From positions 1-33,934 of the forward strand of contig JAQXTH010000015.1 of assembly GCA_029219385.1 (NCBI GenBank): a stretch of DNA of 33,934 nucleotides, written 5' to 3'. The stretch's first letter is position 1, and the number at the start of each line of letters is the position of its first letter. Shown here in pieces: positions 1-3,186 of the stretch. The notes under the pieces were generated by a model. It saw nothing but the letters and a program-made list of their open reading frames with translations. It was not told where the DNA came from and did no database searches. The translations under genes and the position numbers were made by a program. Source of the stretch: Prevotellaceae bacterium. Lineage in GTDB: Bacteria > Bacteroidota > Bacteroidia > Bacteroidales > Bacteroidaceae.

Positions 1-494
1 TATTCCCATTCCGCTTCAGTAGGAAGACGGAAATTCTTTCCCATGAGACTATTCAACTTTGAAATAAATTCCTGACAATCGTTCCAAGAGACACATTCAA
101 CAGGATTATTATCACCTTTAAAATCAGACGGATTATTTCCCTTCACCGCAGTCCACAACGCCTGTGTCACTTCGGTCTCACCGATATAGTAACTGCTCAA
201 TGTGACTTGATGAGTCGGCTTTTCGTTAGAATAGGGATCATTCTGCTGTTCAAAAGTTGCACCCATGGTGAATGTGCCACCCTCAACGGCAATCATATTG
301 AAAGAAACACCATTAACAGTAAACGCTTGAACAGAGGCATTTCCTCCACCCGAAGAACCACCAGAAGCAATGTAATTGTATATTTCAACCACGTCGGATG
401 AGTTTACAACTCCATCACCGTTGACGTCTTGTTTCTGTGCAAAACCCACTGTTGCACATAACGCTGCAACAAACAAAAATAAAAATTTTCTCAT
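1..494 (-). CDS. Secreted FGE-sulfatase-domain protein with dockerin-like EF-hand, 3' end outside window
   Basis: The first 164 residues of a protein that runs off the left edge. It starts with a signal peptide (hydrophobic stretch about residues 4-18, ending FAQ). A single dockerin type I-like calcium loop follows at 23-34 (DVNGDGVVNSSD, with D23, N25, D27, N31 and D34 in EF-hand positions), then a Gly/Ser linker. From about residue 65 an FGE-sulfatase/C-type-lectin-like domain begins, with the family motifs GGTFTMGA, YYIGETEVTQALW, WNDCQEFISKLN and FRLPTEAEWE. It is a close paralogue of the neighbouring gene at 739-1743, including near-identical DNA around the ETEVTQALW segment. The C-terminal part, where a DGR variable region would lie, is off the window. 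Substrate or ligand is unknown. A surface or periplasmic ligand-binding role is inferred from the fold, not shown. Confidence 0.9.
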   Translation of the reverse strand, partial: MRKFLFLFVAALCATVGFAQKQDVNGDGVVNSSDVVEIYNYIASGGSSGGGNASVQAFTVNGVSFNMIAVEGGTFTMGATFEQQNDPYSNEKPTHQVTLSSYYIGETEVTQALWTAVKGNNPSDFKGDNNPVECVSWNDCQEFISKLNSLMGKNFRLPTEAEWE

Positions 495-662: not shown

Positions 663-738
663 GGCGAAACGGAGGCTCAAAGTGTGGGTGAGGTGGGGGG
701 TATCCTGCGATAGGGGCAAGCCCTTATGAACGAAATTG

Positions 739-1743
739 TTACTCGGAGAGAACCAGACGGAGCCCAAGGCTGCCGCCGCGGTTGCCGGGCGTGTAGTAGT
801 TGCGACTAGCAGAGCGGCAGCGCCTCGCGTGGCTGGCCCAACAGCCGCCGCGACACACGCGGTAAGAGCCTGAGGACGGCCCCTTGGGATTGGTCTGTGA
901 ACTGCTGATATAATCGCCTTTCCAATCATAACACCACTCCAACACATTACCACTCATATCATATATTCCAAGTTCATTGGGTTGTTTGGTCTTGACCGGA
1001 TGTGTTTTAGAATTGTTACTATTTATTTTATCCCAATTCCAATCTGTTCCCGACAAATATCGGTCTCCACTGTTTTTCCAATTCCACGCTACATCATCAA
1101 GATTGTTGCTTCCACTATATTGATAACCCCTGCTCTTCTTTCCACCGCGAGCAGCATACTCCCATTCTGCCTCGGTAGGCAAGCGGAATTTCTGACCTGT
1201 AATACTATTCAACTTTGAGATAAATTCCTGGCAATCATTCCAAGATATATAATACATAGGATAATCATTACCCTCTCCATCAATTGACCAACTTTTATTT
1301 ACCAAATCACGTTGATCTCTAACAGTATTTCCCATCACCGAAGTCCACAACGCCTGTGTCACTTCGGTCTCACCAATATAGTAACTACTCAACGTAACTT
1401 GGTAAGTGGGCTTTTCGTCAAAATCGGGATTTTGCTGCTCAGAAGTCGCACCCATGGTGAAAGTGCCACCCTCAACGGGCTTCATAACAAACTCCACACC
1501 GCCTACAGAGAAAGTCTTATCATTTAACACAACCTCCGGTTTCGGCACAGGCTGTGGTCTCGGTTTCGCCTTCGGTTTTGTTTCTTGCTTCGGTTTCGGC
1601 GCGGGGTGCTTCCCCTTGTATGGACAAAGGGTGATGACCTTTCCGCAGGTCTTGCACTTCTCGCGCTTGATTATTCCCTGTCCCACGACAGACGTTGTCG
1701 CGAGGCAAAACATCAACATAAATAACAACAATCTTGTTTTCAT
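739..1743 (-). CDS. Secreted FGE-sulfatase/CLec-fold protein, candidate DGR target
   Basis: 334 residues. An N-terminal signal peptide (about 1-21, ending VVGQ) is followed by a Cys-rich patch C30-x2-C33-x6-C40 with H46, resembling half of a zinc ribbon. A Pro/Lys linker of PKPK-type repeats spans about 47-70. The FGE-sulfatase domain occupies about 78-332, with GGTFTMGAT, ETEVTQALW, FRLPTEAEWEYAARGG and YDMSGNVLEWCYDW. The domain probably has the C-type-lectin fold rather than formylglycine-generating activity, because I do not see the catalytic cysteine arrangement of true FGE. The last 41 residues look like a DGR variable region. The gene lies 24 bp downstream of the PEGA/TonB-C gene, so the two are probably co-transcribed, and a truncated paralogue follows downstream. 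Ligand and cell location beyond export are unknown. Confidence 0.88.
   Translation of the reverse strand: MKTRLLLFMLMFCLATTSVVGQGIIKREKCKTCGKVITLCPYKGKHPAPKPKQETKPKAKPRPQPVPKPEVVLNDKTFSVGGVEFVMKPVEGGTFTMGATSEQQNPDFDEKPTYQVTLSSYYIGETEVTQALWTSVMGNTVRDQRDLVNKSWSIDGEGNDYPMYYISWNDCQEFISKLNSITGQKFRLPTEAEWEYAARGGKKSRGYQYSGSNNLDDVAWNWKNSGDRYLSGTDWNWDKINSNNSKTHPVKTKQPNELGIYDMSGNVLEWCYDWKGDYISSSQTNPKGPSSGSYRVCRGGCWASHARRCRSASRNYYTPGNRGGSLGLRLVLSE
742..864 (-). other. Putative DGR variable region (VR) at the 3' end of the FGE-domain gene
   Basis: The last about 41 codons of the gene at 739-1743 are markedly GC-richer than the rest of the gene. They encode the pattern R-V-x-R-G-G-x-W-x-x-x-A-R-x-C-R-S-A-x-R-x-x-x-T-P-G-N-R-x-x-x-L-G-L-R-L. 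The x positions (residues 294, 297, 301, 303-305, 308, 313, 315-317, 323-325) are all encoded by codons ending in C or T: TAC, TGT, TGT, GCC, AGC, CAC, CGC, AGT, AAC, TAC, TAC, GGC, GGC, AGC. That is what adenine-directed mutagenesis of AAC/AAT template codons gives. The segment lies at the extreme 3' end of a CLec-fold gene, as in known DGR targets. No template repeat or reverse transcriptase is in the window, so this remains an inference from pattern. Confidence 0.6.
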
Positions 1744-1767: not shown

Positions 1768-3186
1768 TTAATGAAGTGTAAACCTTACGGGCAAGCGGTA
1801 TTTCACTTTCACCGCCTTGCCATTTTGCTTGCCCGGAGTGAAGCGCGGCAGAGTGGAGATTACGCGTTCTGCCTCTTTGTCAAGACTACTATCCACACCC
1901 TTGACAGTCTTCACACCGCTCACAGAACCATCTTCGTTCACCACAAACGCCACCATGACAGTGCCTTGAATGCCGTTTTCCATAGCTATTGCCGGATACC
2001 TAACGTGTGAATAAATATAATTCAGCAAAGCAGCCTCACCACCGGGAAACAGTGGCATTTGTTCTACCACATCATAACTGCCCGACGAGGAAGACTGACG
2101 AGAGTTGTTTGTCGGCGTATCAGCCACCTCCTCACCTTTCTCGAGAGAAACAGTAACTGTGTCGATCTTTCCCTCTCTAATCTCCACCATTGACTTGTGG
2201 TCTTTGTAACCCTTTTTGGATATTCTCAACAAGTGGGAGCCTATCAGTTGATTACGAATAAACAGCGGCGTGGTGCCAACCTTGTGATTGTCAATGAAAA
2301 TGTCGGCATCGGCAGGTGTGCAACTAATATCCAAAGAACCGTATATGGGAGAGGGAGTGTCGAGCAAAAAAGTGTCGCCGGCAGACTCTTCATTCACTTC
2401 AACATCTTGTTTTGTCGGTCGGTGGCCGGCTTTTTTTGTCTCCACAAGATAGGTGTCGTAACCCAAATCGCCCGTCCAAGCACCCACGCTTTTTTTCTCA
2501 CCATTAACCCAAATCTCTGCCGCGCTATCAGCCTTTAAGGTAAGATTGGCAAAAGCCGGTCGGAGTTTCACCTCCATAACATGTTTGTTTTCGGGGTCGT
2601 TGACCTCAATCTTGCCCACCTCGGGATAATAGAGCGGAGCCGTCACTCTGAAACCATATTTTCCAAATGCCTTGCGGTCTTGTGCCGTGCCATCGATGGT
2701 TGTCAGTGTCTTGTTGTCGAGTTCCACAACGGCGTTGGGTGGCGACAGGCGAAACACCACATATTGTTGTGTCACGGCGGGTTGCTCCTCTTGTTTCTTC
2801 TCGACAATATTGAGTTCCATGACGTATGTGCACGCTTTTTTTATTGCGACCGGGATAGGATAGTTGATCAGCGAGCCAAATTTGGGGTGAAAAATGCTGA
2901 TGCGCTTCACGCCGAAAGGCACATAGACCCATATCTCGGCGGGGTGTTCCTCTTCCACATCAACAATGCCGAGCGAACCCACGTCAAACGAAAAGCCCTT
3001 TTCTATGGTCTGAATGCGGATTAGGGCGCACACCTCACCATTTTGGTCGCGCTTCATCGTGCCCTGTCTGTTTGCCGTGAGGTCTTTCTCGTTATAATAA
3101 AACTCCCCCACCGAAATCTTGCTTTGGCCAAAGGAGCAAAGCCCCACCGCCAAACATATAATCGCAATTATTATTCTGAGTTGCAT
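1768..3186 (-). CDS. Periplasmic PEGA-domain protein with C-terminal TonB domain
   Basis: 472 residues with a signal peptide (1-20, LGLCSFG-like end). The N-terminal half has beta-rich, PEGA-like repeats of low complexity of function. A clear PEGA domain lies at about 283-350 (GSLDISCTPADADIFID, then GTTPL and GYKDH). A Ser/Asn-rich linker at 358-370 precedes a TonB C-terminal domain at about 385-471, with YP at 397-398, GIQGTVMVAFVVNEDGSV and a terminal LPVRFTL. Such proteins in Bacteroidetes are periplasmic or envelope-associated. This one has no N-terminal cytoplasmic-membrane anchor other than the signal sequence, so it is not a classical energy-transducing TonB. Its position 24 bp upstream of the candidate DGR target suggests a shared envelope role, which is inference. 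A TAATTTTG promoter element lies 32 bp upstream of the start. Confidence 0.85.
   Translation of the reverse strand: MQLRIIIAIICLAVGLCSFGQSKISVGEFYYNEKDLTANRQGTMKRDQNGEVCALIRIQTIEKGFSFDVGSLGIVDVEEEHPAEIWVYVPFGVKRISIFHPKFGSLINYPIPVAIKKACTYVMELNIVEKKQEEQPAVTQQYVVFRLSPPNAVVELDNKTLTTIDGTAQDRKAFGKYGFRVTAPLYYPEVGKIEVNDPENKHVMEVKLRPAFANLTLKADSAAEIWVNGEKKSVGAWTGDLGYDTYLVETKKAGHRPTKQDVEVNEESAGDTFLLDTPSPIYGSLDISCTPADADIFIDNHKVGTTPLFIRNQLIGSHLLRISKKGYKDHKSMVEIREGKIDTVTVSLEKGEEVADTPTNNSRQSSSSGSYDVVEQMPLFPGGEAALLNYIYSHVRYPAIAMENGIQGTVMVAFVVNEDGSVSGVKTVKGVDSSLDKEAERVISTLPRFTPGKQNGKAVKVKYRLPVRFTLH

Follow-up and report, generated by a model that had tools for sequence, protein, structure and literature searches.

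The tail of an FGE-sulfatase gene in a Bacteroidaceae draft genome is very probably the variable region of an apparently remote DGR target

The window analyzed here is a 33,934-nucleotide stretch of DNA from a Prevotellaceae bacterium, contig C15 of a draft genome (G000; 2.18 Mb, 62 contigs, 87.6% complete). Near its start, the minus-strand open reading frame 739–1743 encodes an FGE-sulfatase protein (PF03781, 1.7e-52) whose N-terminus is hydrophobic and was judged by eye to be a signal peptide for secretion. The best match of this protein among solved structures is TvpA of Treponema denticola (2y3c, 2e-36), in line with the likeness to Treponema TvpA seen in the first-pass annotation of this DNA. 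A second FGE gene is truncated by the contig start (Table 1) and, its tail missing, is perhaps another DGR target; DNA repeats of 77–87% identity occur between stretches of 1–297 and 1157–1486. An adjoining protein, encoded at 1768–3186, has PEGA and TonB C-terminal domains.

Table 1. Positions of features in the window, in the same-genus cassette and in the phage-like DGR
Feature	Sequence	Position	Strand	Basis or remark
FGE-sulfatase / C-type-lectin-fold protein, target gene	Window	739..1743	(-)	PF03781 and structure-relative match
Very probable DGR variable region (VR): gene 3′ end, stop codon and four bases beyond	Window	735..870	(-)	Conserved GC-rich backbone, 15 NNC/NNT variable codons
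Near-invariant VR 3′ end (LGLRLVLSE)	Window	742..768	(-)	Alignment of tails
Second FGE gene: dockerin and first part of FGE domain, truncated by contig start	Window	3..494	(-)	Tail outside contig
RVT_1 (reverse transcriptase) gene	G001:C122	3404-4417	(-)	9.2e-17
HRDC gene, precedes and overlaps RT ORF	G001:C122	4362-4874	(-)	PF00570, 1.6e-10
Phage-like DGR target gene	L029	149-1462		VR from ~1323; no Pfam match at 0.1
Phage-like DGR template	L029	from ~1540
Phage-like DGR RT	L029	1804-2901

The first-pass annotation placed a likely DGR variable region at 742–864. As it stated, these bases are the last 41 codons of the gene and are GC-rich, with a GC content of 0.699 compared with 0.443 in the remainder. 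The motifs RVxRGGxW, CRSAxR, TPGNR and LGLRL are all found there, and C or T closes each of the 15 codons that we count as variable (TAC, TGT, TGT, GCC, AGC, CAC, CGC, AGT, AAC, TAC, TAC, AAC, GGC, GGC and AGC), again as described. Two more codons, AGG (codon 15) and ACG (codon 26), vary at the first base within the tail family. The proposed borders fit the variable tail but not the homologous tract, which is wider, extending from ~870 (GGC TCT NNC) and finishing at 735, shortly after the stop codon. By family and sequence match, rather than by structure, the VR is located near the 3′ end of an FGE (C-type-lectin-fold) gene. By comparison with known DGRs, the segment at 742–768 (-) is possibly an initiation-of-mutagenic-homing segment.

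Bases 735–900, searched against the genome, match at 12 places, for 11 of which E is ≤ 2.8e-11. The 11 tail copies lie on C15, C21, C40, C59, C34 (two copies), C10, C1, C23, C49 and C38, the matches on C49 and C38 spanning only part of the query. When aligned, they have a common backbone with intervening codons of the form NNC or NNT. The genome contains 15 PF03781 stretches; in two of them (C15:3–299 and one on C19), the contig stops before the tail is reached. In our judgement, 10 of the 11 copies carry the DGR signature. C38 is probably not a current target: it has the most non-A mismatches of all rows to the outside template L096 described below (27/80), and its third positions deviate too. 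C49 (21/80) and C34b (20/80, with just 11/31 A sites changed) fit less well, and the C23 tail lacks two codons. At L037 (G000:C49, 729–2204) there is a 15-codon insertion within the variable region, which adenine mutagenesis does not explain. The 57 bases after each of the 11 tails fold as DNA at −1.1 to −7.7 kcal/mol with no common stem (C15, 4-bp stem, −2.6 kcal/mol), and 80 bases from the VR end in the same-genus genome G001 fold at −7.4 kcal/mol.

The proteins bearing these tails have varied N-terminal modules. A Ser/Thr kinase domain lies upstream of the tail in C1 and C34a (PF00069, 6.3e-41 and 7.2e-44), a dockerin is present in the C10 protein as in the truncated gene at 3–494, the C23 protein has a PEGA domain, and C38, the copy that is probably not a target, has a BspA-type LRR. 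No further Pfam match was found for C15 at 0.1 (one below-cut-off match excepted) or for C40, C34b and C49 at 0.001; by eye, C15, C40 and C34b have a Lys/Pro-rich linker. The C21 and C59 genes are truncated by contig ends. Ser/Thr kinases with a C-terminal FGE domain and the same hypervariable tail are encoded at 2316–4226 of L035 and 2156–4057 of L033, and the tail-bearing kinases show, by eye, a membrane segment. The tails likely serve variable ligand binding at the cell surface, a binding that would be their purpose and that is likely coupled to kinase signaling in two cases.

We inferred a template from the tails by writing AAC or AAT in place of the variable codons. Of 61 genomes searched with it, seven gave matches at E ≤ 0.001: G000 itself, five of the same genus (G001, G007, G011, G013 and G018) and one of the same order (G053). 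The match in G001 (C122; L062) is 81% identical over 126 bases (E = 1e-25, 3411–3289 (-)) and starts within an RVT_1 gene, five bases ahead of its stop codon; this RVT_1 gene is itself preceded by an HRDC gene (Table 1). This template has AAC or AAT at codons 2, 5, 11, 12, 16, 21, 23–25, 29 and 31–33, which covers 13 of the 15 variable codons of the window; codon 9 is AGC and codon 13 is GCA. At its end, the contig has a short VR-like tail with 21 bases identical to the end of the template. The G001 RT has a 100% match in JAFZXF010000050.1 (L107), from Bacteroidaceae bacterium RGIG8180 of the water buffalo rumen. An empty-site test with a protein flanking the G001 cassette gave one match of 18% identity and was uninformative. 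The presence of a matching template at the end of an RT gene in a same-genus genome supports the reading of the tail as a DGR variable region.

A pattern made from the template identified 73 loci in genome_contigs, from many phyla by record title. A tblastn search (1e-5) with two RTs as queries found an RT match in the examined piece at 59 of these loci, no more than 1 kb away at 58 of the 59 and both upstream and same-strand at 48, and none within the examined piece at the remaining 14. This type of template is therefore widespread. The strict own-template pattern had no matches in viral_contigs. Two template-like loci, L112 and L135, depart from the family in their 5′ part and retain the AAC pattern in their 3′ part; neither has an RT match within the examined piece. 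Within the genus, the G001 RT matched, at 1e-10, only G001 itself and a phage-like RT of G000 among 19 genomes (including G000), and it matched none of the six other genomes with completeness of 90% or more and contamination of 5% or less. The inferred-template matches in G018, G007, G011 and G013 (L044–L047, L049, L051 and L053), each of which may be a VR or a template, occur in genomes with no G001-RT match at 1e-10. For the RVT_1 genes of G003, G011 and G012, the inferred template had no match at 0.01 in the fetched pieces, and the G001 RT had none at 1e-10 in these genomes.

We compared variation in the tails with the positions of adenine in templates taken from other genomes, namely L096, chosen by eye as near in letters, and L107, from the same genus. 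In 10 rows (without C38), diversity was 0.65 at template-A columns versus 0.11 in the rest for L096 (p = 6e-17) and 0.59 versus 0.12 for L107 (p = 1.3e-13); over all 11 rows, with C38 included, the values were 0.655 versus 0.143 and 0.604 versus 0.152. The bases found at the L096 A columns over the ten tails were A (128), G (101), T (61) and C (16). Because the outside templates came from a tail-guided pattern, the test was rerun without the pattern columns, giving p < 1e-3 for all 58 RT-bearing templates and for all 12 templates with no RT in the locus (three of the 73 loci, L095, L115 and L134, were skipped as not placeable in full); the inferred template and the pattern both stem from the tails, which thereby had some influence on the outside templates chosen, and this control covers the pattern columns only. 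When the register of L096 or L107 was shifted by 1–6 bases, p was 9.5e-4 or higher. The codon pattern of the tail is thus far beyond chance, and the paralogous tails vary chiefly where the template repeats of other genomes have A, as the DGR reading of the first-pass annotation implied. Mean pairwise diversity at codon positions 1, 2 and 3 (11 rows) was 0.125, 0.117 and 0.362 over 89 upstream codons and 0.33, 0.265 and 0.208 over 42 tail codons. Third bases in the tail are nearly constant where the residue is free; protein-level selection does not explain this. Copying from one template does.

The first-pass annotation had placed the RT and the template outside the window and looked to the genome for a near-identical repeat beside a DGR-type RT. 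Both are indeed absent from the window, and no matching one was found in the whole assembly (87.6% complete): searches with the tail and the inferred template gave no matching template, and searches with the RVT_1 family and the G001 protein gave no matching RT, that of the phage-like DGR aside. Taken at face value, this agrees with one of the two results that the first-pass annotation would count against a DGR, but the assembly is incomplete. The G001:C122 cassette is of the same genus and has a template that matches the window tails, but it belongs to a different species and no counterpart of it was found in the window's assembly. The target is therefore apparently remote, with its cassette unassembled (likelier) or lost. 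Because the window starts at a contig end inside the other FGE gene, the cassette might also be located left of position 1, and 739–1743 would then be a near target rather than a remote one. In G001, the stretch from VR to template is short (~1.65 kb) and flanked by repeats, and the contig breaks in the VR-like tail; a cassette of this kind may therefore go unassembled. The unassembled part of the genome is its most likely location, and we consider it fairly probable that this strain still has the cassette because the alike synonymous sites of the tails favor recent copying.

The sole RVT_1 gene found in the assembly is at the start of C40, in a stretch that is prophage-like by eye, and its product is 36% identical to the G001 RT. 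It is part of a complete phage-like DGR (L029, G000:C40, 149–2901) whose sequence shows no relationship to that of the FGE tails. The template and target VR of this element differ at 12 positions in 115 bases, 10 of them at template A.

Given the A-specific variation, the homogenized backbone and the same-genus cassette, we regard 735–870 as very probably the VR of an FGE-type DGR target. The cassette would be arranged as in G001, in the order HRDC gene, reverse transcriptase and template. Reverse transcription of an RNA copy of the template repeat, with its AAC and AAT codons, would introduce errors at A. The resulting cDNA would take the place of the homologous 3′ ends in some ten FGE-domain genes across the genome, so that the backbone is restored and residues of the C-type-lectin fold are randomized. 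Such retrohoming, from what may be one template for all tails, would mean that a single small cassette that escaped assembly or binning continues to rewrite some ten dispersed genes as a shared-source, genome-wide receptor repertoire, an account that we favor by a modest balance of probability. A less probable, though possible, variant of the DGR reading takes the VRs for remnants of a DGR that the genome used to have: its tails were diversified, after which the cassette was lost and the tails were frozen. This variant disputes only the present existence of the cassette. It agrees with the lack of a matching RT or template in the assembly and with the four same-genus genomes besides G001 that match the inferred template without having this RT, G018 among them at 99% completeness; T. 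denticola isolates that have targets and lack both the RT and the template are read in this way in PMC4891356. However, the synonymous sites of the tails are unusually alike, as copying from one template would predict. Diversity at fourfold-degenerate sites was 0.445 upstream (23 sites) and 0.140 in the tail (16 sites; p = 3.7e-4, 10 rows), and at all invariant-residue codons 0.341 (52) and 0.132 (17), respectively (p = 2.1e-3, 10 rows), which points to recent copying, and a short VR-template stretch between repeats may break in assembly, as at the G001 contig end.

That the tails belong to ordinary FGE paralogs, with diversifying selection on their binding loops and no retroelement, is very improbable. 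FGE proteins not known as DGR targets do have a similar C-terminal stretch, and the first-pass annotation had named such a non-DGR motif as its main alternative. This alternative fails on the near-constant third positions of the tails, which extend to codons with freely varying amino acids, on variation that follows template A, and on the RT-adjoining same-genus template with AAC or AAT at 13/15 variable codons. Barring another process that copies the backbone, the third-position and A-column results lead us to reject ordinary paralog divergence. Least probable of all is diversification of the FGE tails in trans by the phage-like DGR on C40, which has the one RVT_1 gene that the assembly yielded but has its own unrelated template and target alongside (L029, from 1540 and from 1323) and, by blastn with the FGE tail, no template for it (best match 28 bases, E = 0.17), and we reject it as the source.

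DGRs with remote FGE targets and HRDC genes, and CLec modules fused to kinases, are already known. The TvpA DGR of T. denticola (2y3c; PMC4891356), the closest of the known systems, also has FGE-sulfatase targets that are remote over the chromosome, an HRDC accessory gene that overlaps the RT, as in G001, and isolates that have targets without a cassette. It differs in that an accessory gene lies between template and RT, whereas in G001 the template and the 3′ end of the RT gene overlap, and in having 2–7 targets per isolate compared with about ten tails and several N-terminal architectures here. Cyanobacterial CLec DGRs (PMC7517822) similarly have dispersed C-terminal CLec modules on remote variable proteins, in many cases joined to putative Ser/Thr kinases, and 76 such targets are known from 21 genomes; the present system is from another phylum and includes dockerin, PEGA and Lys/Pro-rich-linker proteins besides kinases. 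In Thiohalocapsa PB-PSB1 (PMC10907252), DGR targets also have CLec/FGE sensor domains, with a kinase domain among those listed, and 15 target proteins in one genome are served by nine DGRs, whereas one template could account for the tails here. Multi-VR DGRs are reported in PMC6642488, and the survey in PMC8144416 would, by its own statement, miss remote targets. Among the literature matches listed, which did not extend to preprints, no title concerned this system in this bacterial group. What is notable in the present case is the number of targets and their varied N-terminal modules.

These results indicate that VRs alone suffice to recognize DGR targets in a draft genome without the cassette, and that the template can be predicted from the VRs and then found in a relative. 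Because the module is fused to kinases and to other proteins, the role of its diversity can be tested. If the one-cassette account is true, the same hypervariable lectin module is carried by Ser/Thr kinases, one protein with a dockerin, one with a PEGA domain and simple secreted proteins, all of one Bacteroidaceae-type cell.
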